Below, one piece after another: positions 19,101 through 64,000 of a stretch of 64,000 bases of DNA (the stretch's first letter is position 1; each line of letters begins with the position of its first letter). Origin of the DNA: a virus; IMG/VR virus record IMGVR_UViG_3300048837_000398, positions 39,012 through 103,011 of that record. One strand, written 5' to 3'. The notes beneath the pieces were generated by a model that did no database searches, was not told the DNA's origin, and saw nothing but the letters and a program-made list of their open reading frames with translations. The position numbers were made by a program, and so were the translations under genes.

Positions 19101-19552
19101 ACTACTTCGAAAAAGTTCGACGCCTCGACCTACTCGCTACGCAGCCAACTACAATTTTCAACAAAAAAGCTTCGTTCCTTTCGAATCAATCGTTCATCTA
19201 TGGCTACCCCATGCCAAACCAAAAAGTTAAGTGGGAAGCTCTGCAGTATCTACGAGCTTGGCTACTTACAGAACGTTCAGACTCTAAAAGAAACTTAGAC
19301 CTCATCAAAGATCCAGCCCTTCTTCAAGAACTTATTTCGTTTAACCTCGACGGAAACTTCGACAGAGTCATGGGCCTCACTGGCTGCATAATAGGGCTCG
19401 AAGAAATATATAACCTACAAAGACGCACCGAGCATTATCAAAAAGAATCTTCGGAGCTAGACAAAGAATTTACTAGACTTATTGTCAACAACAAAAAACT
19501 TTTCCATGAAAATTTTTCCAAAACAAAGGCTAGCGTACTCTGAGAAAATTAA
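16166..19552 (+). CDS. terL: Terminase large subunit with intein and six UGA (Trp) codons
   Basis: An 1128 aa precursor, 752 aa after intein removal. It pumps DNA into the procapsid and cuts it. The ATG at 16166 ([11 protein letters not shown]) overlaps groEL; the N-terminus reads GYWVGGI-W-MPPALYYY, typical of crAss-like TerL. The ATPase domain has Walker A GTRDLGKS (169-176), Walker B LLVIEEAG (near 305) and coupling motif TGGDMQKG, split by the intein. The nuclease domain begins near YIIGCDPFKDD. In-frame UGA lies at 16250, 16301, 16928, 17204, 18785 and 19541; the last is followed by Glu-Asn-TAA. All fragments share one frame. Confidence 0.93.
17180..18307 (+). mobile_element. Intein in TerL coupling motif with LAGLIDADG endonuclease
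   Basis: A 376-residue insert (precursor residues 339-714) starts at Cys (CVVAGTKVWTSKGKLLNVED) and ends ANGFITHN directly before TGGDMQKG, so splicing would restore CLG-TGGDM. The block F-like stretch is EIYNLTAGEYHNYLANG. Two LAGLIDADG motifs (IGLMLGDGYF, LLAGCFDSDG) mark a homing endonuclease. This is a class 1 intein (Cys1, His-Asn end, Thr+1). One Trp of the intein (KV-W-TS) is encoded by UGA at 17204, so the element is fitted to the phage code. Confidence 0.9.
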
Positions 19553-22961: not shown

Positions 22962-25900
22962 TGCCAACACCACAATCCTCTCTAATTATCAAGAAGCTCG
23001 AAGGCTTCGGTGGCAACTACGTAGACTCTGACTATCTGTCATCTGCTTACGAAATTGGTAAACCACACCTTATTGAAGGCGCACTAATGAAGATCTATTC
23101 TTCGCGCTCACGTTTCTTCGGCCTCAAGCCCCTGCTCTCTATGACAGGTGGTACAGGTAACGTAATGGAAGTTCCTACTGATATCTATCGCTGGCGTCTG
23201 TCTGGTGCTGACGAGCGCACTTTCCGCTCTGTCGAGAACCTCGAATCAGGCAACACTACTCCAGGTCTCAATGGCACTACTTTCCGCATCAAGCTCGACG
23301 TAGACTACGTTCACTATCCTGACGTACTTTTCGGCGAAGATAACGAACTGCCTCTCGCTATTGTAGACGGTCCTGTACCAGATGGCACTGGCTTCGTTTA
23401 CACCGTGCGTATCCAGTCTGACAATCCTACGCTGTTCTTCCCTTCCTCACTTCTTGAGCCAGGTCGTCAGTTCAACAAAGTTTGGACTTCGACTCCTTCT
23501 GAAGCTAACAAATGGTACGGAACGATGCAAGCTCCTAACACGTTCGAACTCGAATCACAACTCGGTTTCTTCTCACAAGGTATCGAAGTTACTGACCGCG
23601 CTCTTCGTGAAGATGGTCGCCTCTCTATCCAGTTCCTTACGGACGGCGGCGAATCTATCAACAAGTTCGTACCTTACTACGAAGCTAAAATGCAGGACGA
23701 GTTAATTATACAGCTCCATTGCCGCGTAATCGGCATTGCAAATTTCTCTAATTCAAAGATAAATTAGAATATTTTTAATCAAAACCACGTATAAAAGTAT
23801 GGTCACTGATTACAATATTACGCAAAAGTTAAAAGATGGGTGGATGTCTGGGATTATAGACGGAGAAGGCTGTTTTTACGCCAAACTTGGATCTAAAACT
23901 AAGACATCAGTTTATTGCAGGTTTACTTTAAGAGTGTGCTCGGTTACAATGATTCAGGCATTTTCAACTGAACTAACCAATAAGAAGATAAAACACACTA
24001 TTAGGGAAATCACTAAAACTCAAAAAGAACATCACAGACCTAGCTTTATGCTAGACATTAATACCAAAGCTAGTCTTTTGAAATTCCTAAGAATTTACTC
24101 TGGTAATTTAATCAACAAGAAAGCTGAGGCCACTATGGTGATGGATTTTTTAGAAAAAGCTGTACTAGTAAAACAGTATAAATGTACAGACGAAGATTTA
24201 GAAATAGTAAACAAACTAAAACATCTCAAAACAATTGCATAATTTATTGCTGGGAACTCCTATAAAGGACAATCAGCAGCGAAGTTCACAAATCTTTAAA
24301 AATGAAATACCACTTAGGACATACGATAGGAAATTTGACGATCACCGACTGGAACGTCAAAAAAGCGTACTACACGTTCGAATGTACTTGTGGTAGGAAT
24401 TTCATCGGAACAACCCAAACCATTAAATTCAAAACTACGCAGTTAAACGAAATTGGGTTTACAGGTTGCAAAGTTTGCACGAATGCTCATCGCAGAAAAA
24501 GTCTCTCAGATGTAGAACTTTTTAGCGCAGTATTTGGCCTCTATAAAAATGGTGCAAACAGACGTAAAAATGTTCCTTTTGAAATTTCACTAGAGCAAGC
24601 AATTCCACTCTTTAAGGCAGATTGCCATTACTGTGGAGATGCTCCAGCTAATGTGGTTAAAATAGGTAGACGTATAGTTACATATCAGGGTATAGATCGC
24701 ATAGATTCTGCACTTGGATATACTACACTTAACGTAGTTCCATGTTGTAAGAAATGCAATTACGCAAAACATGTTTTGTCTTACTCAGAGTTTATCAACC
24801 ACATCAAAAAGATTTATGAAAACGTTCAACGACTAGAGCAACCGCTCGTAGACTCAAGTGAGTCGAAATGGGAAGCTCCCGACCTCGAAAGAGAGGGAGA
24901 TGATATAGTCTAATCTGCATGGTAACATGCAGCAGTGGTGTGAATAACTTCCACACATCACGGGGTAGGCCTAACGAACCTATTCGAATAAAATGTGTAC
25001 AAATCGATGGAAGTACAGATGATGTACGGCAAGAAATCGACTCAGGCTGGTCCCGACAAATATTGGACTAAGACAGGTGCAGGTATGCGCGAGCAACTCA
25101 AAGACTCTTGGGTAGACGTATTCTCAGGTCCTCTGACTGCAGCTCTGCTCCAAGACTACCTCATGAACATCTACTTTGCTCGTGAAGACGAAGATAATCG
25201 TCAGACACGCGTAATGACTGGAACACTTGGCTCTATCCTTTTCCACAACGCACTCGTAGCTATTTCTAATGGCTTCTTGACTGTAGACTCGCACTGGATT
25301 CAGAAAGCTCAGAATCCCGCATCCGCTGTTCCAGGTCTCGCTTACGGTAAATGTGTGCCGCTCGTAATAGTAATATTGCGATAAACTTTTCTCTATATGC
25401 TGGAAACTCCTAAAGATCTACCCCCTGTTACTACAGGTGCGAAAGCAGAAACAATCGTAGATATTAGGCACGGTGAAAATCCTAAACCCTCATTACAATG
25501 GACAATCAGCAGGTAATTATAGAAACCTTTCAAACTACAAATTCAACAGTTCAGACTGCCTCGCTACTCAACTTACCATACAGAGCAGTCTTAGCTACCC
25601 TTCAAAGAAAATCAATTCTAGGTAGGCGTAAATCCCCTCGAAAGAAACTGTCTTTTGACCTAGACTTTTTCGAAACAATTGACTCTGAAGCCAAAGCCTA
25701 TTATTTAGGACTTTTTAAAGCTGATGGTTATATAGATAAATCAAAAAACAGATTCGAAATAAGGCTCCAACTGAAAGATCGCGAATTAATCGACAAATTC
25801 TGTTATATTTTAGATCTTCCACTCACCTACACTAACATAATAAAAGCACGTAGGCCTGAGCAGCAAGACAGCATTTCGTGATCGTTTCGTAACGAACGCT

Positions 25901-26720
25901 TTACAAGTCATCTTAACAACCTAAAAACTCCACAAATTTTAAAACGTATTCCCTCACATTTAGCGCATCATTTCATTCGAGGGTATTTTGACGGCGACGG
26001 TACAATAGCTTACCGCAATCGTTCTAAAAATAAGACGCGTTACCAATTTGCGTTAGTAGGTTCTCCAAACGATGATTCTATCCTTAAGTATTTTAACGAG
26101 TTAATTGGACAAAAATTTACTCAAATTCACGTAGATAAGCGTTCCAATCTTCCATACCTGATCACACAGTCTAAAGATCTGCTTTTGGAACTTAAAGATT
26201 TTCTCTATCAAGACGCCACCCTATTCCTAGGGCGTAAATATCAAAAATTTGTAGACATGAAATTTCACTATAGCACCTCAACGACTACACGAGAAACATC
26301 CCAAGTGGATGAAGATATAGTCTAACCTTACTCGAAATAGTAAGTTAATAATTGGCACAGTACGTAGAATATCGTGGCCCTTCAGGTATCATCGTCAATC
26401 TTACGCGCAACAGCATGTACGATTCTACGATCTACTGCAAGCGTTTCCACCCGCAATATCCTGATATGCCGATCGACTCTGCTCGTATGACATTCCTCGA
26501 TTTCGGTTCGTCAGAAGGCAAGACTAACATCCAGATGCTGAAGATCAAAGATTCTTTCACATATGGTGTTGTTCAGGGCATGGTAGGTCCAGCAGGTCCT
26601 AACAAAGGCAACGTATCTTCCCTCAAGCACTCTTACGAAGTAGGTATGTCAGGAACCGCAGGTCTGTGGATTCGCGACATCACGCGTTGTGGAGAGCTCG
26701 TATTTGATTACGAAGGCTAA
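22961..26720 (+). CDS. Major capsid protein, three exons split by two group I introns
   Basis: Exons 22961-23702, 24996-25348 and 26355-26720 join in frame to 486 aa, the size of crAss-like MCPs. Junction protein reads MQDE-L-YKSMEVQMM and PGLAYG-AQYVEYRG. Both 5' sites end in T and the upstream exon bases can pair with nearby intron GCTC or GCCG, putting a U-G pair at the cut; both introns end in G. Unspliced frames stop at 23767 and 25384. It builds the icosahedral shell. Exon limits are deduced by phase and pairing, not proven. Confidence 0.85.
23799..24242 (+). CDS. LAGLIDADG homing endonuclease, intron 1
   Basis: A 147 aa protein with a single LAGLIDADG motif (WMSGIIDGEGCFYAKL) followed by the beta-strand pattern of the family and a C-terminal helix. 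One motif suggests a homodimer that cuts a near-palindromic site. It lies in the 5' part of intron 1, before the ribozyme core, about 97 nt after the exon end. Trp here is TGG. It may also act as a maturase, but nothing in the sequence decides this. Confidence 0.82.
   Translation: MVTDYNITQKLKDGWMSGIIDGEGCFYAKLGSKTKTSVYCRFTLRVCSVTMIQAFSTELTNKKIKHTIREITKTQKEHHRPSFMLDINTKASLLKFLRIYSGNLINKKAEATMVMDFLEKAVLVKQYKCTDEDLEIVNKLKHLKTIA
24302..24913 (+). CDS. HNH homing endonuclease, intron 1
   Basis: A 203 aa protein. An N-terminal zinc-like region (CTCGRNF, CKVC) is followed by the HNH core: CHYCGDAP, then YQGIDRIDSALGYTTLNVVPCCKKCNYAK. It lies between the P-Q and S core elements of intron 1, and its stop TAA comes directly after the S-element sequence GATATAGTC, so coding and ribozyme sequences overlap. 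It shares this architecture with the unrelated intron 2 endonuclease. Confidence 0.85.
   Translation: MKYHLGHTIGNLTITDWNVKKAYYTFECTCGRNFIGTTQTIKFKTTQLNEIGFTGCKVCTNAHRRKSLSDVELFSAVFGLYKNGANRRKNVPFEISLEQAIPLFKADCHYCGDAPANVVKIGRRIVTYQGIDRIDSALGYTTLNVVPCCKKCNYAKHVLSYSEFINHIKKIYENVQRLEQPLVDSSESKWEAPDLEREGDDIV
25349..26354 (+). mobile_element. Group I intron 2 in MCP
   Basis: A 1006-nt intron. The 5' cut after T25348 can pair exon ACGGT with intron GCCG. Core elements include TGCTGGAAACTCC at about 25399-25411, GGACAATCAGCAGG at 25500-25513 and S-type GAAGATATAGTC at 26311-26322. These closely match the core words of intron 1, so the ribozymes are related although their endonucleases differ. It ends in G at 26354, restoring the MCP frame. 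Confidence 0.8.
25498..26325 (+). CDS. LAGLIDADG homing endonuclease, intron 2, with UGA-encoded Trp
   Basis: A 275 aa protein with two LAGLIDADG motifs, AYYLGLFKADGYID and FIRGYFDGDGTIAY, so it acts as a monomer. The N-terminus may carry a short helix-turn-helix (TASLLNLPYRAVLATLQ). UGA at 25879-25881 lies in the linker (DSIS-W-SFRNERF) and must be read through to give the second motif. The start codon lies in the conserved intron word GGACAATCAGCAGG, and the TAA directly follows the S element, so both ends of the ORF overlap the ribozyme core. Confidence 0.85.
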
Positions 26721-45097: not shown

Positions 45098-45887
45098 CTA
45101 CGTTTCAATTAAGTCTGTGCTGCACGATCTTTCGTCGATGATAGATGAGCGTTATTGGAACGAATCTGCGATGGAAGAATGGATTACTAAAGCTCTTCGG
45201 CAACTCAACATCGAACCTGCTCTAGAGCAAGCTGTAGCACTGCTCGAAATATGCGAGCACAAAGCGCAACTCCCTTCTGATCTTAAGTATCTTACTCAGA
45301 TAACGTATAAGGCTACACCAATGCCTGAAGACGAACTCGCTGCGATTATCGCTGACTTAGATCTTCCTTCGAACTCTAACCTCTTTCTCTACCACTCTGC
45401 CCTAAAGAATCTGAAGTGGCTGCCACTACGGCTAGCTACGAATCCGTTTCACAACTCGATCTGCTTAGACGAAACTCTTACGAAATGCCTTAACTGCCAA
45501 TACGAGTTTACTGTTTCACCTTCGATGGTGCTGACTACTAACTTACGCTCAGGGCTCATACTTGTTTCGTACTTACGTTTCCCCGTAGATGAAGATGGCT
45601 CAGCCCTTATTCCAGACAACGAAACTCTGAAAGAAGCGATCCTTCATTATGCCCTCTACCGCTACTGGATGACACGCTACATAATGAAAGAAGACGGTGC
45701 AGACTCTCGCGTTAAGTTCCACTCGACTATGTGGGACACGCTTTCTAAGAAAGCGCTAAACCTGAACCTACCTGATCTCTCTATGCTCGAGAACATAAAG
45801 AACCAACGTAATAGACTTGTTCCGCGTTCACGTATGTTCCAAAATAATTTTATGAACTTAAATAGCGAAGAAAATGTTGACTTCTAA
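45087..45887 (+). CDS. Tail-tubular/ring protein (P22 gp4-like layout)
   Basis: A 266 aa protein. N-terminal VLHDLSSMIDERYWNESAME and ALRQLNIEPALEQAVALLEI helices, a middle beta part with LPSDLKYLTQI, and C-terminal helices (EAILHYALYRYWMTRYIM) match the layout of adaptor/tail-tubular proteins that join portal and tail. Placed between the IHF-like and muzzle-like genes as in crAss-like phages. It overlaps the next gene by 14 nt. Confidence 0.68.
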   Translation: MTTNYVSIKSVLHDLSSMIDERYWNESAMEEWITKALRQLNIEPALEQAVALLEICEHKAQLPSDLKYLTQITYKATPMPEDELAAIIADLDLPSNSNLFLYHSALKNLKWLPLRLATNPFHNSICLDETLTKCLNCQYEFTVSPSMVLTTNLRSGLILVSYLRFPVDEDGSALIPDNETLKEAILHYALYRYWMTRYIMKEDGADSRVKFHSTMWDTLSKKALNLNLPDLSMLENIKNQRNRLVPRSRMFQNNFMNLNSEENVDF

Positions 45888-48800
45888 AGGCATCGTAAAA
45901 GGGATGTCTCAAGACGTGCATCCCCGCTACCAACCACCCAACACATATTATTCTGCTCTTAACGCTGTGCTCGAGTCTAACGATGGTGACATACTTACGC
46001 TTTCTAACGAGCTAGGCAATCTTCAAGAACTCTCTACTTACCCGATCAACGAAGACGGTATCCCTAAGAAAGTGATCGGTAATCGGCTCTTAGATGACGG
46101 TACAACAGTGCTCTTTATTTTTGATCCAGCTGAAACACGTCCTGTTCACGAAATAGGAATATGGGACCCATTCAAAAATACGTACACAACTTACGTTAAG
46201 GGCGAACCTCTTTACTTTTCTGACAAGCACTACGTCAACGCTATCTACCGCATAAAGAATGGCTGTGAGCGCGTAGTCTACTTTACGGATAATCTTAATC
46301 CGTATCGCGTAATTAACTTAGACCGGCCAGAGTACTATACTCAACCACCTAATCCGCAGCTACTGTCTGTAGACAAGCTTAAGTACTCTCCAGACACGCG
46401 GCCAATATCTCTCGATCTTTCGACGCAGACTTTTGGCGGATCGCTAAACGTAGGCACATATGCTTTTGCAGTGCGCTTGCTAGACCAAGACTACAATCCT
46501 ACTAAGTGGCTGATAGTTTCTTCGTCCATTCCAATTACAGATGACGATCTAAAGATGCTCGAGCCTCTTCAGATAGATGGTGCAGCATCGAACATAGACG
46601 ACGTTGGTTACGTGCCCAAGACTACTAAGTCCATTAAGGTGGATCTCGAAAAGGTAGACACTCGCTTTACGTACGTACAACTTGCTGTCATAAAGTGGGA
46701 AGATGTTTCAGGAGCAGTTACGGGCGTAGAGATCCTCACGCCTACTAACATACCGTTCTCGTCGCTCCCCATTACAGATATGTCGATAGTCTATACAGGA
46801 CTCACTTCGCAGATCGAAAGCTTTTCCTCACTCGAAGACATCCTTACAGAGAAGGTACAGCTGGAGCAAGTTGTGACGCACGCGCAAAAGGATAATCGTC
46901 TGATGGTGGCTGGTCTCACATATACACCTAAAGACTACACAGGCTTCCAACGGCACGCATCTAAGATCTGGACGGAGTACGACATCTCTGATGGAGATCT
47001 AATTCACGAAACTATCAACGCGAAAGCTAAGCTCTCTAAGACAGATCTCTATTACTTCGAGCGTGGTTCGTTTACTTTCGACGAAGTCTACGCACTAGGC
47101 ATTGTCTATATTTGGGATGATGGCACAGAGTCTCCTGTGTTCCATATACCAGGACGCCCAATGTTTGATAATACTCTCGAAGTCTTTGGCACGAACCCAT
47201 ACATAACTACTAACTTAGACGAGTGGGATTCTTACGACGTAACAGGAGACATCAACATCTTTAACGATCTCAAGACCTCACGCTGGCAAGTGTACAATAC
47301 GCACATTCGCTCGTCCAACAACGCTGGCTACATGGGCTACTACGAGACTTCTACTCAGTATCCTCTTATCGATACGTGCAATGACGATCCGCTTACTTAC
47401 TGGGGCGAAGATTATTGGGGTAACGAAATAGAACCGCTAGTAACTAACATTCGTCACCACAGAATGCCTTCGTACCTAAAACCTTCAGGAGCTGACTTCT
47501 CTGCACTACGCTTAGGCATCAAGTTCCACATGTCTGAAGACTATCCACACGAACGTATTGTCGGACACTACTACGTATTTGGTGATCGTACTGAAGAGCG
47601 CACTATCGTCGACAAAGGATTCATCACTACACTAGGTGACGCTGGTAACGACAACTACCTTTTTAAATACAACATCTATCCGGGTGGAGCAAACGCAGTT
47701 CCTTCTAAAGAACTCTACGCCTATATTTCTCCAGAGGTTACATTCGAAGGTCGCACTGTTTCTGGTGACTACCTTACGGTAGAAAAAGCATACGATGGTG
47801 GTGATAACATGATTGCTACTAGCAACGCTCTAGTTGTTGCTAACGATATTTATGAGCAACCCATAAACGTGTGGGCAGTTCAACAAGTCTTCAGGAACTT
47901 TAATGAGCCAGTAGAGCTTAACTACAAACTTAAAGAGGCTGTCTACTTAGCTAAGTCACCTACAGAAAAGCTTCCTAATTATGTGTATGCTCATAACGAA
48001 GTCGCCACAGTTGAAAATCGTTCGATCCATACTAACGTGATGCTCTATCAAATTGAGCGTCCGTTTAAAGAAGTTGACGATTGGGCAGATGATTTCTACT
48101 CTTATGGTGGTAGTGGTGGCACTCCTTCTAATGGAGCTCGTACTCTCCACGTATCTGTTAAGAGAGATATCGACGTATTCGCTAATCTATTCGTAGTGCA
48201 ATATAAACGCATCGGCTCTTCGTTCTTAAATCGTTCAGGACTCTCAGGAGACTACGAGCAGCTTCACTATGAAGGAGATTCTTTCGTTACCTACTTCTCT
48301 GTGTTCGATTCTACGTGAACAGTTACACAAGGCCCTACTGAAGTAGATGCTACCGCATACGTAGGTATTCACGTAATAGACTGCGCAACTAATCCTGGTT
48401 TACGTTATGGCTCGCCGTCTAATCCACAGTTTACGTATCTCAAGCCACTGCTCAACACGACTAATGCTGACAATATAGGTCAGTACGTCGCATCAAAGTA
48501 CTACGAGACCATCCAAGGCCAAGGAGCTTTTTATCCAGAGTACTACGCTTCGAACAAAGCGTTCGACAACATCGGCTCGATAAAGCGCTATTATCCTATT
48601 TCTTTCGACTACGACTTTTGCTCGGAGTGCATCGAAGAGTTTCCTTATCGGATCTACTATTCGCAACTAGATGATATCGAACGGAGAAAGGATGCGTACA
48701 GAGAAATACTGCCTAACAACTATATAGATCTTGACGGCTCTAATGGAGCAATAACAGACCTGTTCGTAAACTTCAACGAGTTCTACGCAGCTACTCCACA

Positions 48801-50043
48801 CGCGCTCTACCTTATTCCTACTAACCAGCAAGTCCTTACGACAGAAGATGCTGAGTCAGTCTACATAGGATCTGGTAAAGTGTTTCAGCTACCACCCCGC
48901 CCACTTAAAAGCGCCGACAATGCGTTCGGTGGATTAGAGCTCTGGAAGTCGCGAGTGCTTACTGAGTACGGAGCATTCTACATGGACACTGCTTCAGCTA
49001 GACCGATCCTCCTTACTTCTAATCTCAAAGACCTTTCGCTAGAAGGCATGCGCACGTTCTTCCAAAAGAATGCTAAAGTTAAATTCTTAGGACAGTTCAA
49101 AGAACTCACAGGACAGACATACACTAACACTTCTACAGCTTCTGACGAAGGAGTAGGCTACATGTCGACGTATGATCCACGGTTCAAGCGCCTTATTATC
49201 CACAAGAAAGATTATACGTTCACACCTTCTGCTGCAGCACAACTTAAGTACTACTCGCCAGAGGTAGTTGCTACCGAAGAGTTCGTCCCTCCTCCCACAC
49301 TCTGGACAGACGGCTCTAAGTTCTACATCGATACTACTAAGGTAAGCTTAGATACTCCCGACTATTTTCAAAACAGAAGCTACACGATCTCGTATTCGTT
49401 TCTCAATCAGGCGTGGGTGTCCTATCACTCGTACTTCCCGTACTACATGTTCTTCGACAACAACTCTTTTTACTCGGACAACATCTTTACGCACGGTACC
49501 TCTAACTACCAGACTTTCTACGGAACTAAGTACGATCACTTCTTAGACATTATCGTGCCGATAGATCCTAACGAGCAGAAGACTCTTTCCTCCTTATCCT
49601 ATGTTTCTGACACGTGGCTGTACGACACTACTCTCGAAGCTTACGCTAAAACTGACGACACGTTCGATAGAGCAGTCTTCTACAACTCTACGCAGTCTTC
49701 AGGTAATAACTTCATAATCTCTAATCCTTCACCATTCGCAACAGTAGTCCCGCCTTCTTTAAAAGCTGTGCGTACTGACTCTAAGTGGCACATCAACGAC
49801 TTCAGAGATTACACTCTCAACGCGAACACACCTGTTTGGGATAACGCTCCATTCATACCTAACCCCACACTCTGGATAGACAGGAGCCCTAATCAAGCGA
49901 ACATCGATTCCAACAAATCTTTGTTCACGCTTCCACGTTTCAAAGACTTCTATCAGGGCGTGCGACTCTTCTTTAAACCAGACACTAACTTGAAAATTAC
50001 GACAGATCTAATTCAGACTCTGCATACCAATAAAAACCGATAA
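45874..50043 (+). CDS. Tail muzzle-like (stabilisation) protein, UGA (Trp)
   Basis: A 1389 aa protein, close to the size of the muzzle protein that closes the tail of crAss-like phages. UGA at 48316-48318 (SVFDST-W-TVTQGPTEVD) joins two large halves of the same frame and style. N-terminus MLTSKGIVKGMSQDVHPRYQ followed by long beta-rich, Tyr/Asp-rich sequence as in P22 gp10-type needle/hub proteins. Stop and next ATG overlap (TAATG). It would form the distal tail gate. Confidence 0.75.
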
Positions 50044-51758
50044 TGAAAAAGACAAAAAAACGTGCTACTGGTGGAGACATAGGTAATGTTGTTTCGAGTG
50101 TCGCACCACTGCTCTCACTTATTCCTGGAGCACAGCCTTTCGCTATGGGAGCTGCTGCTCTTTCCCCGCTACTTTCGATGATGGACACGCTAACAGAACG
50201 TAAGAAGCCAACAGGCGGTTCACCAGGAGCTTACAATACTGGCGGCGATATTTCTCTGAACTCGCAGTCGACACAGATAAAAGGTAATCCTAATGTCTAC
50301 GACTCTGAGACGTACGATACACCTAACGGCAAAATAAAGCTCGATCACAACGAAGTTATCAAAGGAACATTCGCTTATTCTAATCGTCTACGCAATCCTA
50401 AGACTGGAAACACGTTCGCTGAAGACATCGCTCCTATCGAAAAGTCTTCGGGCAGAGCTGCTAAGAGAGGACGCATTAACGATCCTATATCTAACAACAC
50501 GATCTCTGTTAACGAACAACGTGCTCAGCTTATTGCGCGCACTCAAGAGATTCTAGCTACTAAGTTAGGGCACCGTACTCCACAAGGTATGGACCCACAA
50601 AATGCTGCTGCAGCTGGCTATCAAACTGGTGGGCCAATAACACCTTCAGCCGAACGACCTTACATGTCTGTTGGTGGAGACTATTTCTACGACCCTTACG
50701 ACTCACACTTCCTTCGGCGCAATCCCCTCACTGGCTCCTACACTCAAGAAGACAATCCTGGATTCGGTAGTGGAAAAGGCTTCAGGCCTTACCAAGAAGC
50801 CTCCCCAACTGATTGGGAAATGGCACAGTTTGGCCAAGAAGGTGTAACTCCTGGTGGAACTCTTCCAGAAGTAACGATCAGCGGTAAGCGTAATGTTCCT
50901 GCTCCACGAGGTACGAGGCGAGCCCCCTCACCAGTAGCTGCCTTAGATTCTCTTACACGTGCAGAAGAGTTCACTGCAAATCCTGCACTCGTAAACAGAG
51001 TTGGACGTTGGAGAACTGATGATCCTGCGCCAGAACTAGGCGCTCCTCAAGGGCTGCAGCTCCCATACTCTGCGCTACAGTACAGCCAAACTGCTCAACA
51101 AGAAATGGATCAACGTGCTCAACAAGTAGCCGCCGCTCAAACACTTCCAGCTGGAGTAACTCCTCCATCAGCAGTAGATTCGAGAACATATGGCTCTGCT
51201 CCCACTGCTCCTACAAACAAGTATGGTACTACTGTTGGGGATGTGTTTCAAGCCATCGAAGTCGGCTCTAAGTTTGGCCAGTTGGTTGGCGGTCCCGAAA
51301 AGGAAACTCCTCACCTCGATAGAAGCCAGATCTCTAAGCAAGCGTACGATCCGCGTCCAGTTCTTCAGCGTAATCAAGCTAACTTCCAAGCACAGTCTAA
51401 CGCTCTTCAGACTTCTTCTCCTAACCTTCGGCGAGCACTCCAGAATTCTCTTTACGCTAAGAAACTAGAAGCTGATTCAGGAGTTCTTTCGAAGTACCAA
51501 GAAATGAACAACCAAGCTACGACTCAATACGAAGATCGTATCTCTAATAGAGCTCGCTACAACAATCAAGTGATGACTCTTACGGACGACATGAATGCAC
51601 GTAACCGTGGTCAGTTCATGAACGCCTCTCAAAACGCAATGACTTCACTAGGTAACTTTGGCGAAGCTCTAAATCGTAAGAAGCAAAACTACGATGCTCT
51701 GAACATCTTACGTACTATTTATCCAGATGTGTACGGACGCATAGGCTCAATAATCTAA
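50043..51758 (+). CDS. Virion/cargo-type protein with TGG repeats
   Basis: A 571 aa protein. The N-terminus has a hydrophobic Ala/Pro-rich stretch (SSVAPLLSLIPGAQPFAMGA), then several TGG-type turns (RATGGDIGN, KPTGGSPGAYNTGGDI, YQTGGPITP) and a long helical C-terminus. It follows the muzzle gene and precedes two more large proteins, as do the ejected cargo proteins of crAss-like phages. TAATG overlaps on both sides. Confidence 0.58.
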   Translation: MKKTKKRATGGDIGNVVSSVAPLLSLIPGAQPFAMGAAALSPLLSMMDTLTERKKPTGGSPGAYNTGGDISLNSQSTQIKGNPNVYDSETYDTPNGKIKLDHNEVIKGTFAYSNRLRNPKTGNTFAEDIAPIEKSSGRAAKRGRINDPISNNTISVNEQRAQLIARTQEILATKLGHRTPQGMDPQNAAAAGYQTGGPITPSAERPYMSVGGDYFYDPYDSHFLRRNPLTGSYTQEDNPGFGSGKGFRPYQEASPTDWEMAQFGQEGVTPGGTLPEVTISGKRNVPAPRGTRRAPSPVAALDSLTRAEEFTANPALVNRVGRWRTDDPAPELGAPQGLQLPYSALQYSQTAQQEMDQRAQQVAAAQTLPAGVTPPSAVDSRTYGSAPTAPTNKYGTTVGDVFQAIEVGSKFGQLVGGPEKETPHLDRSQISKQAYDPRPVLQRNQANFQAQSNALQTSSPNLRRALQNSLYAKKLEADSGVLSKYQEMNNQATTQYEDRISNRARYNNQVMTLTDDMNARNRGQFMNASQNAMTSLGNFGEALNRKKQNYDALNILRTIYPDVYGRIGSII

Positions 51759-53677
51759 TGGTAAACAGATACTTCAATCCAGTAGCATACGAAGGTGAGC
51801 TCTATGCACCACCTATCGACTACATCGAAAAAAGTCTTAAGCAACTTCAAGAAACTTACGACACTAACTTCGCAGCAGCAGATAAACTCAAAGACTCGTA
51901 TCTAGAGTCACTTCCTAAAGATCGTGCCAGGGCTGACGAATTCCAAAACGACATCATCAAGTCTATCGACGACATCACTGCTAAGTATAGTGGTGACTAC
52001 TCGCAAGCAACTAAAGATCTGTATGCGCTCCAGTCTGACATCAAGCGTAAGCTACGTCCAGGCACAGAGTATTATACTATCGGCAAGAACTTTCAGATCT
52101 ATTCAGAGGCTCTTAAGAATGAGCAAGCTCGCCTAGCTAAAGGAGAGATTTCAGAACACCAATATAGAGCACTCGTCGCTAACATCGACAAAACTTATAC
52201 GGGTGTTAAAGCAGATCCAACTACGGGCACCTACAATACTATTCGGGTGTCACCACTAGCTAAGTACATGGACTCTAATGCAATCGCTACTAAAGCACTC
52301 GACTCACTCAAGCCTCGAGAGATCACGCAGACTAAGGTTGTGAAAGGGCCAGATGGTTACTACACAACTCTCAAAGAGACGACAGTAGGTATCGATCCTC
52401 AAGAAGCATACAACGCAATGAAAGCTGCGCTTACAAACGACGATCAGTTCATAGCTTATTGGCAGCAGTTTAACGATCTGCAAGGAAGTGACGCAGAGAC
52501 AGAGATGTCGAACGTACTCAACGATTACGCGCACAATCTCGTACCGTCTAAGTCAGGTATCTTCAAGCAATCGAATGACATCGACATGAAAGAAGACATC
52601 GTAGCACGTGACGCTAGAGCTTATCACCGAGCAGTTAGCCTCGAGAATCTGCGACTACGTAATCGCATGCACTTCGAAGACTACAAGAACAAAGCTGATG
52701 CTCCAATAGATGGTGGCGATCTCGAGATCTTGGGGCAGTCCAACACTGGCTTTAGCCGTTATCGTAAGATCGAACCTGCTACAGGTTTCTTCTCGACTAA
52801 CCAAGTTAACGTAGATCAGTTGCTCAAGACTCGTTCACGGAACGACATCAACTATAAGCAACTCGAAGCTATCAGAGCTGCTAATCCTAACAAGTCTTCG
52901 CGCGACATTATCGAGCTCTACAATAACTCACTCTCGTCAGATAAGTACGGTTCAGAGATCTACTATACTCGCTACAAGACTACGGCTGCTCAAAACGAAG
53001 AAGCTCAGCGTACTGTTCCGACACTACTCAACGCTAATTCACCGATCATCGAATATGACTTAGCTACGGGAGCTATTACACACCTACTCAAAGCAAGTGA
53101 TCGTGAAGCTGCTATCAAAAAGATGTATGACAAAGCGGACAAACCAACTAAGATAACAGCTAAGGGCTTAGGCAAAACCTCGCCTTCGTCAGGCCACCTA
53201 CCTTTTGGCACGATCTTAGCACCACAGAACTTCGAAGGTAAGTACTACATTGTCCCTGACCAGTCTACTAAGTTCAACGAATTTAACACAGGCTTCTCAG
53301 ACGATCCTACGCAATCACGCCGTTACAAGATGTTCGGCTGGATGCAAGAAACTACGGAAGGACCGATGTTCGAACACTACGTAGAAGGACAACGCGAGCC
53401 CTACAAACTTATGGGAGTCAAAGAGTACTTCTGGAACCCACAAGCTAAACGAACTGAAGAGGATGTGCGTTACTACGGAGCTAAACCGATACGCATGGCA
53501 GACGGCTCGATCACTTGGACACCCGATAAAAACGATCCTCTCATGGAGAATGGTCAGTTTGTAACACCGTTCGAGCTAGAGCGCAAAGAAATTCCTGCTT
53601 CAGCAATATATGCACGTTCACCACGTAAACCAAGAAGCGCTTCATCTGAAAGCGATGTCTCACTAGAAACATTCTAA
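51758..53677 (+). CDS. Virion/cargo-type protein
   Basis: A 639 aa, mostly helical, hydrophilic protein. The N-terminal 150 residues form long coiled coils (IEKSLKQLQETYDTNFAAAD). The C-terminal tail is Ser/Arg-rich (ARSPRKPRSASSESD). No enzymatic motif seen. Between the TGG-repeat protein and the giant protein, all tightly spaced, so it is probably packaged in the virion. No UGA inside. Confidence 0.55.
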   Translation: MVNRYFNPVAYEGELYAPPIDYIEKSLKQLQETYDTNFAAADKLKDSYLESLPKDRARADEFQNDIIKSIDDITAKYSGDYSQATKDLYALQSDIKRKLRPGTEYYTIGKNFQIYSEALKNEQARLAKGEISEHQYRALVANIDKTYTGVKADPTTGTYNTIRVSPLAKYMDSNAIATKALDSLKPREITQTKVVKGPDGYYTTLKETTVGIDPQEAYNAMKAALTNDDQFIAYWQQFNDLQGSDAETEMSNVLNDYAHNLVPSKSGIFKQSNDIDMKEDIVARDARAYHRAVSLENLRLRNRMHFEDYKNKADAPIDGGDLEILGQSNTGFSRYRKIEPATGFFSTNQVNVDQLLKTRSRNDINYKQLEAIRAANPNKSSRDIIELYNNSLSSDKYGSEIYYTRYKTTAAQNEEAQRTVPTLLNANSPIIEYDLATGAITHLLKASDREAAIKKMYDKADKPTKITAKGLGKTSPSSGHLPFGTILAPQNFEGKYYIVPDQSTKFNEFNTGFSDDPTQSRRYKMFGWMQETTEGPMFEHYVEGQREPYKLMGVKEYFWNPQAKRTEEDVRYYGAKPIRMADGSITWTPDKNDPLMENGQFVTPFELERKEIPASAIYARSPRKPRSASSESDVSLETF

Positions 53678-53678: not shown

Positions 53679-56600
53679 ATGCCAGATATTACAGGTAAAA
53701 AATCTTATTCTACCCTTGAAGGTCCAGCTCGGCCTAGCATGGGTCAACATTATACGTACGAAACACTCGGTTCAAAAGACACCGCACTAGGACGCGTCTT
53801 CGACAACTATTACGACAAAGCTTTCATTCCTTCGTATTCTCAAGCAGACCAGCGCTACTACAATCAAGGGCACGTCAATGCGTCGATGAACTGGCTAGCA
53901 TCCCTAGGAACTAAAACAGTTATATCTGGTCTACCAGCAATAGCAGGTGGCATCACTTCACTAGTAGCCTCCCCCCTAGCTCTGTCTAAAGACATTAGCT
54001 TCGAAGACGTGTTCGCTAAGAACCCGCTCAACATAATTTCGAAGAGTGTGTCCGAGGCTGCTGACAATTACTTTCCGCTCAACCAGCGTGGCGACTTTAA
54101 CGATCTCACGTTTCTTCAGCAGCTCTCTCGTCCTGGTGAGCTAGCTACTGCTAACATCGACACGTTTTCGTTTCTAGCGCAATCCTTCTTAGGCGGTGGT
54201 CTAGCTGCTAAAGCTGGACTAGGCGCTAAGCTTGCTCCTAAGTTCTCGAAAGCCAAGGACGTATCCGAAGTACTAAAGAATCTCACTGGGCCTAACTTAG
54301 CGAAGACAGCTTCAATCATAGACTTCGAAGTTACGAACGCCCTTATGACCATTAACGAAGCTGCTGCCGAAGGTAAAGATGGATCAGAGCAAGTTCGTGA
54401 AAAGCTTTATGCAGATCGTGCATACGGTAAGAACAATCTTACTGACGCTCAGATCGAAGAGAAAGCTAACCAAACTAACTTCAACGTCTTTTGGCAAAAC
54501 GCCATCACACTTGGACTCACTAACCGCGCATTCACTAAGCTTCTTTCGCCCCTTTTCAAGAGTGCTCCAGCAGCAACACGAGCTAATCCTTATGCACTTC
54601 AGAAGTCCGAAGAGCTGCTCGCTAAAAATAAAACGTACTCTGGTTTCCAGAAGTTTCTGTTCGACAAAGGATATGCTCCAGGTCAAACGACTAAAGCTGT
54701 TCTAGGTCAAACATTATCTGAAGGTTTCCTCGAAGAAAACTTGCAGTTCTCGATTCAAAAGGTTAACGATGCTGACCACGTTCGCGAAGGGTTTTGGGAT
54801 TCACTCAAGAGTTATGGCGAAGACTTCGTTACTTCAGGCTTAGATCTCAACGACAAAGACCGTGGCAAAGCTGTAGGTCTCGGAGCTCTCTTAGGTGGCG
54901 GTTCTGTAGCAGTGCCTAACGTTATCGACACGTTCACTTCTAACGAGAATTCTTTCGGCACTATTGGGGAAGCTCGTAAGCACCGTGAGAACAGAGATCG
55001 TCTGACTACTAAGCTCAACGAAACTTATACGGACTTCATTACGTCTTCTGTCGCTAAGAAAACTCCTAAGACAACAGGTAAACTCGAAGAGGTAGACGGC
55101 AAGTTCTTTCACACGATAAACGGTAAGAAAGAAGAAATAAAACCCGAGACATTCGCAGCACTTTCACAGCAGCTTCCACTCGACGATAAAGGAGCATACG
55201 AAGTTCCTGAGCGTTTCGAGTTCGACGAAAATGGCGACATAGTTATCGACGAAGTAAAAGCTAAGAAGCTTGCTCGCGATGCTAAAGTGCATTCGACGCT
55301 CGACGATCTACTTTCTGAAGAGCTCTCTAAAGTAAACCCCGATGATCTCAAGCTGCGCCTTTATCAGCGTGAGAAACTTTCTGCTATGGCGTACACTGCT
55401 TTCGAAGCTGGTGCAACAGACATATTGCTAGCTAAGCTCGAAGCTCTTGCTACCATTGGTGACGCTACCGCACTCGGCATAAAAGATCCTACGCAACTAC
55501 GCGCAGAAGTAGACTCGATGAAGTCTCACGTTACTCGTCTCGAAGAGCTCTACAAGACTACGCAAGACTCGACAATCATCGGTACACAGAACGCTGCTAC
55601 ACTCAAGCTTAACGGAGAACGTAAAGAGTTTATCGCTACACTTGGCGCACGCATCATTACGCTCGACGATCTAGTAGAGAAGTCACGTGCTGACTACGAG
55701 AACGCCATCTCTGAGATCGCTTCTAAGTATTCAGAAGAAGATAAGAAAGTAATCGAGCGCATTGCTCGCGAAACCTCTGAAGCTTCTACGATGGCTACTG
55801 AGCTGCTCAACCTTTACCGTAAGCGTGCTAAAGCAGTTGGTAAGCCACTAACTGCTAACGAAGTTGCTAAGTACGACGAAGCTATTAAAGAAGGTACGCG
55901 TAAATTAGCTGAACGAGAACTTTCGATAAAAGAAGCGCGTGAATTGACTAAGGCTGCGCAAGACACTGAAGTACGCCAGATCTCTACGTACAAGATTAAC
56001 GAAGACTATCTTACTAAAGCTCGCGAAGAAGCTGGACGGAAGTTCAACGCACTCATCGAACCTAAAGAAGGACTCGCTAATTTCAAAGAACACAAAGCAA
56101 AGCGCACACTCGACACTCCCTACGATTCGTCGAAGCTTCCTTTCGAGCTCTCTACTGATACTACTAAAGAGGAATACGATTTCTTCGAAGCGCGTAAAAT
56201 CAAGCAACTCGACTACTCGCAGAACTTGCAGGCAGCACAATTCGAGACGTACTCTGAAGTTGTGTCTGAATTAGCTTCGTGGGTTAATGCTAAGGACATA
56301 CTTGATGAAGAGACTGCTGCTTCCTTAAAAGACTATGTTGGAGATGTTCTCGACTCACAGACACGACTCTATCCTCAAGATGCTGACGCTCTAGCCGAGT
56401 TAGTAGAAACTAAAGTCTTAGAACTACAGTCTGCTATCGACGCTATCACTAATGACTTTACTTCTCGTGGGATACCTGTTGACGAGTACGGTGCTGACGA
56501 AGACTACTTATTCGATGCTCCCGAAGACGATAGAAAGCTTTCAAATCAACTAGCTGACTTATACCAAGTACGTTCTGCTCTAGGCAACCTAGCTACACAA

Positions 56601-59600
56601 ACACCAGAGATTGTAGCTGCTATCAAAGAACGTGGAACCTACAACTTCAAAGTGCTTTCTCCGAACGAGATCCGTGCTAAGGCAGCAGACTCTCTACTCG
56701 ACTCTCCCGATACTGTAGTTGCGAACGCTATCAAGAACGAACAGTTTAACGAAGACTTCGATGGCCTACTTCGCGTCGAGCTAGAGATGTCTAACGTAGA
56801 GAATTACATTACTATCCTCGAGCAGAAAGTTAAAGAAGATGCTCTATACGAACCAGTGCTCGAAAAGGCTAACTACCTTCTAGAGTCTTTAAAATTTATA
56901 GTAGATGAGATTCAACGTGTTCGTGCTAATAAAGAATTGAAGATTCGTGAATTCAGTCTTATGAGGCTCAAGGGACTCCTCGCCACAATAGACGACTTAA
57001 AAATAAAATTCCCTGATAATCTCGAAGCTTCACTGCGCCTCTTAGCAGAGCAACAACCTCAACACGCGTACTACGTTATTATGGACGCTCTCGCAGATCA
57101 GAAGGTTGATCTGGAAGTGCTCAAAGCAACGATGCGTGAAACCGTGACTGCTCTTCCTATCTGGCAAGTTAAAGGTCTTATCGTTCAAAACATTAGCGAA
57201 GAAGAGTTGGACGTGCTATTCTCTTCACCGGCTCGTGGCTTAGAACTTATCGCCGAAAAAATTCGCACTAACGAACGCAACCAAGGAGCTACAGGGCAAT
57301 CACCGCTCAACGACTTCTTAGATGACTACGATATCGTACGCTTCAAAAGGAATCTCGATAGCTACGTAGGCACAGTAACTACTGCTGCTCAGCTACAGTC
57401 TCTCGTAGATCTCTACCTCAAAGCGCTCGCAATTAAAGACCTCGAGCTTTCTAAGTCTAATCAAGCGTATCGTAATCTAACGACTAAGTTCCTCAAGTTT
57501 GCGCAGGCTCAAGAAGTTAAGAAGGGTAAGGGTGAAAAGGCGATCGCTCCTCCTACAGATGCGCAGCTACAAGCTGTCTCTGAACTAGCGCGCTTCATAT
57601 TCTCTCCGCCATCTCCCCGTAACTACTTGTTCGATAATGTGGCTGGTCTTAAAGCTCCAGCTGGTGCAGGCAAGACGTCCGTGGTTATTCCGCTTCTAAA
57701 AGAAGTGTTAGGACTCGCTAAGACAGCCATGCTGACTGCTGCTCCAACTAAGGGTGCGTCAGAGCTTATCGCTAAAGAAACTGATTCGCAGTACGGAGCT
57801 ACAGACTACGAAGCTCTCATCAACTTACTCGAGAATAAAAGCTTACCGCCAGCAGTGTCCGTAATTGTGTTAGACGAAGCTGGCGCCCTTTCTATTCCTG
57901 AACTCACACGTCTGACTACAGCTCTCGTGCGTTACAACGATACGTCAACCACTAAGGTTAAACTTGTCATGGTGTACGATCCAGCGCAGTTAACTACGGG
58001 TGACAACGCGACAGCTTCTATCGACGCTAAACGCTTCTACGAAGTTCCTAGCCCGATTAACGATTATCACTCTGGTACTCCAGAAGTTAAAGAAGGCTAC
58101 AAGAAAGCTAAGGTCGATAATCCTGAACTAGGTAAAGGCGTAGGTGTTCCTTTCGTACACCACATGTACGATCTTTCTCCGCTTTCGACTACGTTCCGTT
58201 CACCTCTCACAGAGATAGTAGAACTGCAAAACGCGTTCAAAAGTTCTGAGACCGTCTCACAAGTACGCACTTCTTCGAACGCTACTACTAAAGACATGAC
58301 TAATGCTCTAGGTACTGTAGCAGCTTCTTCGCCAGCACACCTCATCGCTACGATAGTTCAGTCTACTAACGATAACAGGGCTCTAGCTCGTACTCGCATG
58401 GTTGTAGTTGGCTCTGAAGACAAGAAGCGTAAGTACACTGAAGATCTGAAGAATGCTAATGTGCAAGATGTTAGCGTCCTTACTGTCGAAGAGTCTCGCG
58501 GTCTCAATGCTGACGAAGTATATGTAGACGTAGTAGAAACAGATGCTCGCGCATATCGGATTCCTAAGAAGCTTAATCAAGCTATCTACACAGCAACCTC
58601 ACGAGCTATCAAGTTCATCTATCTTACTAACGTACAGTCAGGTAAACACGTGCACGATCCTTCGCTACCGTCTAAGCTCGAAGCAATTCAGCAAGCACAA
58701 GAGTCTAAGTATGCTGAGCTTATAGAGCGTCTTAAAGAACGTGTCGAAGCATTTAAAGCTCTAGGCGAAGAAGTAGTTGTTCCACCACCTACCACACCAC
58801 AGGAAGCCCCTGAGGTGACAGAACCGTTGACAGAAGAAGAAGCTTCTGAAGACTTCGCCACAGATATTCCCGAAGAGATCACTCCTACGCCACCTACAGA
58901 TCCGTCAGTTAATCGTCATACGATACGTCGTCCTCAGTCAGAAGTATTCGGGACTACTAAGCTACAGCCTATCACTCCTGGTACTGAAGTGTACTTCGTG
59001 CGAAACGTTGATTCTAACGGTGAGCGTATCGAGATGTATGTGCAGCATACGCCCACCTTGTGGCGATTGGTTGGAATCCTCGAAGACTCCGAAGTAGAAG
59101 AAGTCTCTACTAAGATAGGCGCTAACCTTAGAGAGCTGCCCGAGACACAAGTACGGAAAGCACCATTCAGTGAAGACACTACGCAGCGAAACATCTTTGA
59201 ACTCTCTACTCCACCCTCGCACTTCGCGAATGCACGCATAGGTGTTAATTCGCACGATATTATCTACCACTATGGTGGAGAAGCTACTGCGATGTTTGCA
59301 TCTACGCCCGAAGATCCTAACGGTCTTCAGCACTACGCTAAGTGATGGCTAGAGCAGTGGTACGTAGATCCAGCTAAGCACATTTCTAATTATGCAGACA
59401 TCATTGCTAATCCGCACAACTACTTACGCGTAGTATCGTTCAAGTCTGCTAAAGAGGTTGAAGCTGCTTTTAAATCGATAGCTGATCCTACCAAACGTCC
59501 TAAGCTTAATCGCCCGTACCTCATCATTAGAGGCGCTAAGTCTACTAAGGGTACAGACATTGCACCACAGTTCGTAGCGCTTCGCCCTGCTATCCTGAAA

Positions 59601-62600
59601 AGGGAGTCAGAGGAAGTCAAACAGGTCGAAGAAGCACTCAAGCTTATCGATAAACTGCAGCAGCTAATCGCTTCGTCTTCTCTTCCAGGCCAATACTCTA
59701 AGCTCAAGTTAGGCGAGTCGATCACTATTGGTAAAGACATTTTCTATCCGTTCCACAAGTTTGTTGTCGAACTCTCGACTGCGCATAAGCAGCGCACTAC
59801 AGATCCCACAACTCCGTACGAAATCCGCATGTATGGTGAAGCAGCTCAAGGTTCACCTATCGCAGCCCTCCTTCCATACTTAGATTCGTCACTTCTGTCA
59901 GCCGAGTTACTCGAAACAGCTTTCAAGTTAGACGCGCTCATACATGGTGAAGTTAAGGACGGTAAGCGTCGTTCATACACAGGTCCAGCACAAAAGGCTT
60001 TCAACGCTATTGCACGTCAAAACTTAGTTGCAAGTCTACCTTCTGGCAAGACTCTACTTCTTCGCGACTACTATCAGACAGAAGACCGCGACGACAAAGA
60101 GATCGAAGTTGCTACAGGCGCATCGCTGCTTGGGCCTATCAAGTTCTTACGTGAAGGCGGCCAGTCTTACAATCCTACAGTAAAGAAGTCACTAGTCGAG
60201 ACGATCAAACGCTACTTAGCTTCTCTTGAAGCACGCAATCAAACCAACTCGCCACGTCACAAAGTACTTTCGCAAGTTGCGTCTAATCCTTTCTACTCTG
60301 TCATCAAGCCACCAACTCTCTTAGAGCTTAACGAGTTATTCGTAGGTTCTGCAGATGCTAGCGGTAGGCTCTCTAATGTCTCTGAAGGATTCGGTCTACG
60401 TCGACCACTGCCCACATGGGCACGAGAAGAGTTCTACAAAACTAAGACTCTTGCAGACGTAACGATCTCTGACTACTTAGAGACTACTCTCGAAAAGATA
60501 TCGCCTACACGCATAGACATAGAGTTCGGAGAAGTAGATTCAGAACTAGAAGTAGTCGAGACTAAGCCGCTTCGTGTATCTAAGCAAATGCTTATTCGTA
60601 AGCGTATTCGCGAACAAAAGCCAACTCTGAATCCTCTGGACGCTCTCGAAGAACAAAGAGTAAATGACTTACTTCGTGTTGGCAATGAAGTTCTTCCTCA
60701 AGAGATAAAGGACTTTTTTGAGATAGGTGTGTCTACCAATAATAAAATTAAAGTTAAAATTAAGGATATTCCAGGACAATCTTTAGACGCTTCTATGCGT
60801 GCTTGGATAGAACGTAATATTCCGAACGTAGTTTTAGGCAAGATTACTTTTGCAAAAGGCATAGCTGAAGTTGAAATTAAACTTCAAGGCTGGGCTGATT
60901 TCCAACAGTGGCCAATACAAATTGTGAGCGGAATGGGTGGTGCTAGTGAGTTCACGCCAGCTTCGCTACTCGAGTGGGGACGAACTCTAATTGAAACTGA
61001 CTTCCAAGCAAAACTCGCGAACCTTCCTAAGCAAGCACCTCAAGTTGACGTTGTAACGCGACTACGACAGGAGTTTTCAAAAGAAGAGCTCCAAGAGTTT
61101 GTCACTCAAATGCAGGCTAAAGACTTGAAGCAGGCTGTCGAACAATACTTATCAGACTCTACGCAACTAATGTCGTACGAACAGAAGGTTCGAACAATAG
61201 CAGCTGCTATCCGAGCTTTACGCCGTAATGTCACTACGACTACTCTTGAAGAACGTGTGAGAGAAGCGATCACATCTTCAGATACTATCATGGGTATCGG
61301 ACGTGAGAAAGAAAAGTTTACTCCTCGTGACTTCATTCGTGCTGCGATGTATCTCGAGATCTTACCTGACTTAGATCCTAAGCTTCTTATCGAGATCCTA
61401 GACTACGCCCGAGCATACTATGCAGAGAACTACGACGGACAGGTTGCTGACCTCGAAGCTCTGATTCAAGCGTATGGTGGAGTTAGTTTCGATCAGCACG
61501 TAACAGATCTAGCAACTGCGTACGTAAAAGTATTTGGAGAGCTGGGCTACACACTCGAGCCTCTTACAGGCACCACTACAGAAGAAGTCTTAAGCTTCGT
61601 AGAAAAAGCTGTCATTCAGTCCTCTGCTTATCGTGGTACACAACGTGCAAGTTCATCACTCGTTCCTACGCCAGAGTTCCTTACGTGGGTTAACTCTGTT
61701 AAAACAGCGTACGATGCTAACGACGAAATTATACTTAACGCTAAGCTAACAGGTAAGAAGAATAAGGCTCACGTCGATAAGCTAGGTGAGTTCTTCAACG
61801 GCGATGTCACTGCTGACAACATTGGAGATGCTCTTCAAGCAGTAGAATCGTTCATTAGCATCGAGCGTCAAATGACGTTTACTTCTGAAGATGAGAATAT
61901 CGGCCAGCTTATCTCTGAAGAAGAAGCTGACGAGATAGTGCGCCACACTACTCCGCCAACACTCATCGAAACGATAACGTCTATCTTCACAGGTAAGACT
62001 CCTAACAGAGAAGTCACGCGCTTCGTGAACTTCAACTTGCGTCAACAGCAGTTAGGGAAAGATGTTTGGGGCCTCTACAAAGATGGCGTCATCTCTGTCG
62101 TACGTGCGCGCAACGGTAAAGTAGGTACTAAGATCGTGCGTCACGAGCTTTTCCACCGCATCTTTTGGGAATATCTTACTAAAGAAGAACAGCTTAGAGC
62201 TCTCGAATTAGCTGAAGCTCAATGGGGTAAAGCAGATACTATAACTCAAGAAGAAAGACTAGCCGATGCTTTCGGAGAATACTTTACACCACCTTCTACT
62301 TGGTTAGTAGCGCTTTGGGATTTCATGCGCAACATCTGGCGTTTACTAGGATTTACCTACAACAACATGGGATCACTCGATTCTCTGTTCAACTCGATAG
62401 ACGCTGGCTACTACAAAGGAAGTGGGCGTAAAGTCGCAGTAGAACGTACGATGCAGTACATCGGCTCTAAGTTCGACTCGCCCGAAGCCTACGCTTTCGC
62501 ACGTCACGTAGTGTTCGAGCACTTCAACGAAATCTTTTACAATCGCAAGCTTTCTGACAGAGTGCTTTCTTACGAAGAAGCTGTTCGCCAGTCCTTAGAG

Positions 62601-64000
62601 TTCGCTAAAAATTACGAGCCCGAGAATGTGAGTGTTGCCGAAAAGCGTTGGCAAAAGAAAGCACTCGCTACTCTTACGTCTGATAAAGCAGTTAGACGCG
62701 GGTTCATCGACGAATACTTCGGCTCGGCTAACCTCGTACAAGCTCAGCTTATCGAGAAGTGGAAAGAGAAGGGCGAAGAATACTTAGAGACTAAGCGCCT
62801 TATCGAAGAGCTTCAAGAACTCAGAGAGAGCGACGAAGAGTTTGGCGAAGACGAAAATGCTGACCTCGATGACCTACTCGTTAAAGAAGCTAATCTCCAC
62901 GCAGAGATCTTCGAGTCTGAACTTCAAAATCCAGAAGACTCTGTTACGGGACGCGTCAAGCAACGTTTCGTAGGTATCAAATACGAAGAAGCTGGTCAAC
63001 AGAAGTACGCTGATTTCGGATCAGTCTATCAGTTCGTAGTAGAGACGTTCGCAAATGTACCTACTGCTAATCTAGAGACAGTTCTCGAGTCCTTACGTAA
63101 GCGCCTAGCAATCTACGTAGACTCTAAGTCGAACAACATTCGCGCTAAGACAGCACTGCACCTTTCTACCTTAATCGATAAACTCGAAAGAGATGTTAAG
63201 CGTCAAAACTGGAAAGGCGAGCCTAATCCTACGGACGCAGTGTCTTTCCGCAAAGATGTTAGCTCTCCTCTAGTTTATGCTGTAGTTCATAAGCAGGGTG
63301 GTAACGCTAACGTATCGTACGAAGAGGCCTTAGCCAATCCTGCTACTTACGAGATCGTAACTATGGATACACACGCTGACTTCCAAGACCTCGTAGACAG
63401 CATCAAAAGAATCTCTGAGCTCTCTCAAGAAGTAGTGGCTAAGACGTACTATCACTTCGAAGACGTCAATTTCTTTAAAGCTCTATTGATGGCAGCTGGT
63501 TCCTTAGGACGAGCTTACCCTCACGTAGCTATCCAAGAGTTTTACTATGGCCGCTACAAGTCTAGGTACATCGCTAACAGAACGTCGTCATCTAGAAAGG
63601 TATTCGAATCTAAGATAGACTCGGGATTTCAATCGTATGCAGCGGCTCAAAGCACTACGCTATTCTCAGAGCAGTTTATGACTGATATCTCAGGTAAGAC
63701 TACGATCGAAGATCAACGCATGGCGATACACCGCTTCTTAGCTCTGATAGGCATTCCTACTGACAAGCTCAAGACAGCCACTCCTAACGACGTAGCACTC
63801 ATCTACGATAAGCTGCCGATTTCCCTCCGTGCTATGCGCGAAAACTTCGACAACTATTATCTCAATGTTCAGCCTAGCGAAGAAGAATATATGTCGCTAA
63901 AGGAGATCATTAGCTCAGAGTCTACTCTAGTTAGTAATCTCGTTCAGATGCTCAACAACAACTCTTCGCTTATCGAGAACTCGAGCTACCGGCGTGGTGA
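53679..64000 (+). CDS. Giant virion protein with SF1 helicase and HExxH zincin motifs, partial
   Basis: At least 3440 aa, running off the window, with UGA (Trp) at 59343-59345 (HYAK-W-WLEQWYVD). N-terminal 450 residues hold several hydrophobic Ala/Gly-rich stretches (VISGLPAIAGGITSLVASP; GLGALLGGGSVAVP), then long coiled coils. Residues about 1320-1665 form a superfamily 1 helicase: APAGAGKTS (GAGKT 1329-1333), VIVLDEAGAL (D1399), VMVYDPAQLTTG, PLSTTFRSP and YTATSRAIKFIYL. A zincin motif HELFHRIFWE (2822-2826) with downstream EERLADAFGEYF follows. Likely packaged and ejected with the genome. Confidence 0.8.

Follow-up and report, generated by a model that had tools for sequence, protein, structure and literature searches.

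A giant gene of a crAss-like phage predicted to join a gp47-like N-terminus, an SF1 helicase, a zincin and a gp50-type RNA polymerase

What kind of phage protein carries both helicase and zinc-protease motifs in a single giant chain? The gene raising this question begins at position 53679 (+) of a 64,000-nucleotide stretch of viral DNA, hereafter the window, which spans bases 39012-103011 of a virus record of 103,011 bases and stops where the record, and the contig, ends. The last 127 bases of the record are identical to the first 127, forming a 127-bp terminal direct repeat; therefore, the contig is circular. The frame crosses the contig junction and terminates with a TAA at record position 6209. 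Codons 1-3440 lie in the window (53679..64000) and the rest at record positions 128-6209. The motifs of the initial annotation all fall in the one frame from 53679, at 57654 (APAGAGKT), 57873 (DEAG), 57975 (YDPAQL), 58188 (TTFRS) and 58590 (TATSRA) for the helicase, and at 62142 (HELFH) and 62262 (ADAFGEYF) for the protease. However, the frame of at least 3440 aa is not fully open as first reported, because a TGA occurs at codon 1889 (59343..59345, +). A second in-frame TGA is found past the junction, at record position 162. The chain is also longer than the part first seen: when the TGA codons are read through, it comprises 5,467 codons (~5,470 aa, 613 kDa).

Profile matches in the genome to the crassvirus major capsid protein (PF23898, 9.3e-19) and to CrAss_Ring_1 (1.6e-33), together with PHROGs matches for the TerL, portal and muzzle genes, provide the Crassvirales marker set of major capsid protein, TerL, portal and ring/tail genes. 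The crassvirus capsid protein was also detected in five of six relatives tested. Judged from these markers, the phage is crAss-like (Crassvirales) and distantly related to crAssphage. In the window, the TerL frame (16304-19552, +) contains an intein-like insertion, spanning roughly positions 17190-18190, besides several TGA codons in frame. The major capsid gene (22961-26720, +) is seemingly in pieces; in the capsid profile, the match of the first piece is limited to the first half, and small endonuclease-like ORFs follow. A GroEL-like chaperonin gene (13600-16191, +; Cpn60_TCP1, 1.2e-53) is split between GDG and TTT of the ATP site by an intein-like insertion, which includes a homing endonuclease domain of the LAGLIDADG type.

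The reading of TGA determines the extent of the giant chain. Among late ORFs with 100 or more codons, 28 of 38 end with TAA and nine with TGA; several of the latter, namely the giant, muzzle, TerL and portal ORFs, run on in the same frame. Among early minus-strand ORFs, 11 of 38 have a TGA stop. At the TGA codon of TerL in the window, tryptophan stands opposite in all three close relatives. The residues opposite are Trp, Trp and Tyr for the portal TGA, Trp, Phe and Leu for the muzzle TGA, and Trp and Tyr for the TGA within the polymerase portion of the giant chain. A TGA of the relative L006 aligns with a TGG tryptophan codon of the giant gene. Since the sites in TerL, portal, muzzle and RNA polymerase face tryptophan in relatives, the comparison well supports the reading of TGA as tryptophan in the late genes of this phage. 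Recoding of UGA to tryptophan in late genes is known in crAss-like phages, other cases of which also have no detected UGA suppressor tRNA (PMC7886860). Here, tRNA searches with ARAGORN and Rfam found no UGA suppressor tRNA. An Rfam tRNA match of 32 bits at window positions 11247-11332 (+), with Leu-like arms, lacks a clear anticodon arm and was not called by ARAGORN. At codon 1889, which lies in an indel-rich stretch, the relatives show Arg and Ala and no Trp, and this site is uninformative alone; from the comparison as a whole, it is probably read as tryptophan.

With profiles built from six lineages, hhalign aligned the N-terminal region of the chain, residues 54-406 (53838..54896, +), to gp47 of crAss001 (probability 96.7%, E 4.7e-10). 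Membrane-active-like stretches had been proposed at this end. Hydropathy gave this idea no support, no 19-residue window having a mean Kyte-Doolittle value of 1.6 or more, and the N-terminus is homologous to that of gp47.

Profile and alignment evidence places an SF1B-type helicase at residues 1282-1660 (57522..58658, +). Pfam AAA_30 was matched at 1.6e-7 with the 1,888-aa ORF and at 1.2e-8 with the excised domain, in each case passing the curated threshold, and Viral_helicase1 was matched in other members (best 8.2e-14). The helicase profile finds the structures of RecD, Pif1 and Dda. The G-x-G-K, DE, DPxQ, RS and Y-x-A-x-S-R signatures (motifs I, II, III, IV and VI) are invariant in six lineages, as are residues K1332, D1399, E1400, Q1437, R1507 and R1642. 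With AAA_30 above cut-off and an active site invariant across relatives, the SF1 motif set of the initial annotation is real. The domain is thus a predicted SF1 helicase of the SF1B (RecD/Pif1/Dda-like) type, for which 5'->3' translocation and unwinding are predictions only. No counterpart was found by hhalign in gp50 or in gp47 of crAss001, Dulem virus 41 and cr111_1; a helicase as a general feature of gp47 was therefore rejected. Likewise, when three queries were run by tblastn against 50,697 phage records, no such helicase was revealed in annotated phages; the last query matched the zincin region alone. Apparently, carrying the helicase within the chain is a trait of a mostly uncultured crAss-like branch.

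The second enzymatic domain, residues 2740-2960 (61896..62558, +), was delineated by profile and by hhalign homology to the C-terminal HEAFH domain of gp47 (98.3%, 1.2e-14). In hmmsearch, its profile matched gp47 of crAss001 (4.4e-13) and of Dulem virus 41 (3e-23), while searches for a Pfam family or a PDB match were negative. Residues H2822, E2823, H2826 and the candidate third ligand E2859 are invariant in six lineages, and crAss001 gp47 has the same HExxH with the downstream third-ligand pattern. HELFH and ADAFGEYF are thus confirmed in the frame, the active site is invariant across relatives, and we predict a gluzincin-like zincin metallopeptidase. The same zincin also ends the separate, unfused gp47 of crAss001 and Dulem virus 41. 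This indicates that it did not originally serve to separate gp47 from gp50. It also weakens the earlier proposal that the protease is there to process the giant chain, since the unfused proteins keep it with no fusion to cut.

The zincin is followed by the region leading to an RNA polymerase (62676..64000, +), the core of which lies beyond the junction in L002. Its motif GSDYDVD occupies residues 4172-4178, outside the window. The polymerase aligned to gp50 in hhalign (100%, 2.9e-40), and its profile retrieved the solved polymerase of phi14:2 (PDB 6VR4, E 3.9e-30) as the sole PDB match at E up to 1; single-protein PDB and Pfam searches gave no matches. An N4-type, T7-like single-subunit polymerase was rejected in view of this sole match and of the catalytic motif DxDxD. 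The domain is a predicted crAss-type virion RNA polymerase of the gp50 type; its presence in virions and its role in early transcription would follow by homology. The phi14:2 polymerase is a virion component and transcribes early genes (PMC7886860, PMC10136315). In crAss001, gp47, gp49 and gp50 were found in virions by mass spectrometry and are thought to exit the tail partly unfolded (PMC10172136). Because of the homology to gp47 and gp50, ejection of the giant chain with the genome, as first suggested, is likely, but its central activity, the RNA polymerase, had been missed since it lies beyond the window.

The gene neighbourhood agrees with this assignment. The tail-tip (muzzle) gene (45874..50043, +) comprises 1,389 codons, carries a TGA in frame at 48316 and matches phrog_15100 on either side of this codon. 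It is followed by genes in the places of cargo proteins C1 (gp45; 50043..51758, +) and C2 (gp46; 51758..53677, +), the giant gene and a 1,517-aa gene. crAss001 has muzzle, C1, C2 and gp47 in this order, then gp49 and gp50 on the opposite strand, while in cr111_1 gp47, gp50 and gp49 follow on one strand; the gene order around the giant gene is the same as in these two phages. The C1 and C2 assignments come from position and synteny with crAss001 only. No sequence match to gp45 or gp46 was found, which was counted against the preferred explanation, together with the indel-rich, Trp-free surroundings of codon 1889, the missing suppressor tRNA and the separate helicase and zincin frames of two relatives described below. 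The following gene (L002:6210-10763) contains DWKTG, a motif of the PD-(D/E)XK kind, as well as a second HExxH (HEYYH); in G001 and G003, the final part of the giant frame matches it.

Overall, both ends of the chain match gp47 and gp50 and the helicase has no counterpart in either; judged by these homologies, the giant chain is a gp47 that gained a helicase and became fused to gp50. We give a probability of about 0.7 to the reading that it is a fused virion cargo/transcription protein of a crAss-like phage, composed of the gp47 N-terminal region, an inserted helicase, the gp47 zincin and the gp50 RNA polymerase.

In order to follow these features in relatives, alignment-based searches were needed, single-sequence scans with the helicase and zincin having found none. 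The RNA polymerase profile retrieved 29 viral loci and two in genome bins, and the zincin profile 32, the two sets overlapping; L041 and L044, with weak helicase matches and neither zincin nor polymerase, were left out. Wherever the contig covers the sites, the helicase P-loop and HExxH are intact (more than 20 relatives). Mutant helicase or zincin residues, named at the outset as evidence against the two activities, were thus not found at any readable active site. Many relatives have single stop-free frames of 4,300-6,240 codons, and in at least 16 lineages helicase, HExxH and RNA polymerase share one stop-free frame with intact active sites. The longest frames (6,047-6,239 codons) include the second HExxH of the following gene. 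In the divergent L067 and L071, an HExxH is in frame and the zincin profile does not match, while L108 and L119 have zincin-polymerase fusions with no detectable helicase. In L060, and identically in L061, the P-loop is split between GLAG and TGKT by an intein-like insertion (starting with C and ending with HN; protein residues ~1105-1386). In a tree of the polymerase core, 25 sequences of the set, that of the window included, stand apart from four gut/faecal crAss-like polymerases. In L006 (11230-11930) and L008 (2180-2490), the polymerase gene is broken downstream of its catalytic site, where ~200 additional bases are present and the frame shifts; a known intron at the L006 break was rejected, as Rfam gave no match. 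Finally, the relatives L074 and L075 come from genome bins labelled Candidatus Dependentiae and Spirochaetaceae, which may hint at a host outside Bacteroidota or reflect misbinned phage contigs.

In L117 and L100, helicase and zincin are in two overlapping frames, so that the chain is split between the modules; one chain is therefore not needed in every relative. This bears on whether the gene studied here could also yield two proteins, codon 1889 stopping most ribosomes to release a 1,888-aa gp47-N/helicase protein, with zincin and polymerase made by read-through or re-initiation. Indeed, the TGA separates the helicase from the zincin at about the place of the L117/L100 gene break, an ATG at 59829 opens the remainder of the frame, and the suppressor tRNA is missing from the search results. 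However, TerL, portal and muzzle are also interrupted by TGA where relatives have tryptophan, the 161 codons from the TGA to the ATG are open and aligned to relatives, and most relatives have no stop at the site. We consider two separate products quite improbable, and the single fused chain is retained below.

By analogy with its homologues, the fused chain would be packaged in the capsid, would be ejected through the tail in a partly unfolded state, before the DNA or together with it, and would refold in the host to transcribe early genes. Adjoining a virion polymerase, the helicase may be a translocase opening the template or internalising DNA. Tentatively, and with clearly less than even odds, it would translocate on the entering genome, open the template for the polymerase and possibly help to draw DNA in. 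A general proposal couples fusions of virion RNA polymerases to DNA entry (PMC10770324). For the zincin, regulated cleavage of cargo proteins or of the giant chain itself is a slightly stronger candidate role, still short of an even chance, while an action on host proteins is rather doubtful. Trimming of cargo proteins in the capsid before release, with no role after ejection, also seems unlikely: the P1 protein DdrB, which has a metallopeptidase at its C-terminus, undergoes cleavage before it is packaged (PMC5512222), and both the fused and the unfused forms of gp47 have the zincin, but the N4 virion RNA polymerase, which has such a domain, is packaged unprocessed (PMC5512222).

Having helicase, zincin and polymerase in one frame behind the tail genes, the giant gene combines several disparate enzymatic domains, which is how polyvalent proteins are recognised. 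Like these proteins (Iyer et al. 2017), it would bring many activities, a zincin included, in one phage-delivered chain. Helicase and zincin, injected with the polymerase, might then strike host targets or defences and not phage DNA or cargo. Iyer et al. describe injected phage proteins with many combined activities and list host targeting among possible metallopeptidase roles (PMC5512222). In contrast to the shuffled domain sets of polyvalent effectors, the domains here and their order are stable over a deep clade, and the chain has a crAss-type polymerase; crAss phages are unmentioned in Iyer et al. 2017. We hold such a conflict role to be as unlikely as capsid trimming, and keep the fused cargo/transcription protein as the preferred reading.

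Compared with known systems, crAss001 gp47 and gp50 provide the homologous N-terminus, zincin and polymerase in the same neighbourhood, but as separate genes on opposite strands and without the helicase, and the fused chain is ~700 residues longer than both together. The phi14:2 polymerase gp66 (6VR4) has the homologous core and DxDxD site, whereas, judged by the sequence match, neither helicase nor zincin belongs to the chain that was solved. Giant polymerases of 'up to ~6000 aa' are already recognised as a hallmark of crAss-like phages, and other genes of this kind show a similar size and a fused transcription block (PMC10136315). The N4 virion RNA polymerase (Schitoviridae) is also a giant injected polymerase with an HExxH zincin-like domain (PMC12633501, PMC5512222), but it is T7-like, with the zincin behind the polymerase and without helicase, hence an analogue and not a homologue. 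In Thermus phage P23-45, the two-barrel virion polymerase lies in the 5,002-residue gp96, for which coupling of DNA entry to transcription was proposed (PMC10770324); it is fused to a tape-measure protein, with no helicase reported. Thus, giant crAss-like polymerases and N4 polymerase-zincin fusions are already known, and the helicase-bearing layout is apparently undescribed: in the literature searched, which left the 2018 crAss-family paper outside its scope, we did not find an SF1 helicase in such a chain or the order gp47-helicase-zincin-gp50.

These results touch on how short-tailed phages finish importing ~100 kb of DNA once capsid pressure falls. The usual candidate motor for late DNA entry in these phages is a host or phage RNA polymerase. 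Finding the zincin also in unfused gp47 narrows the possible purposes of the protease, and the catalytic residues are now named for mutation. With a helicase within the injected polymerase, intact over a deep clade, a phage-carried motor becomes directly testable. It is conceivable, though we regard it as a long shot only a little less doubtful than the conflict role, that this clade couples an ATP-driven DNA translocase covalently to an injected RNA polymerase, some members doing so in one chain of ~6,050-6,240 codons with a second HExxH and a nuclease-like motif, and would thereby carry a self-contained engine for genome internalisation and transcription.
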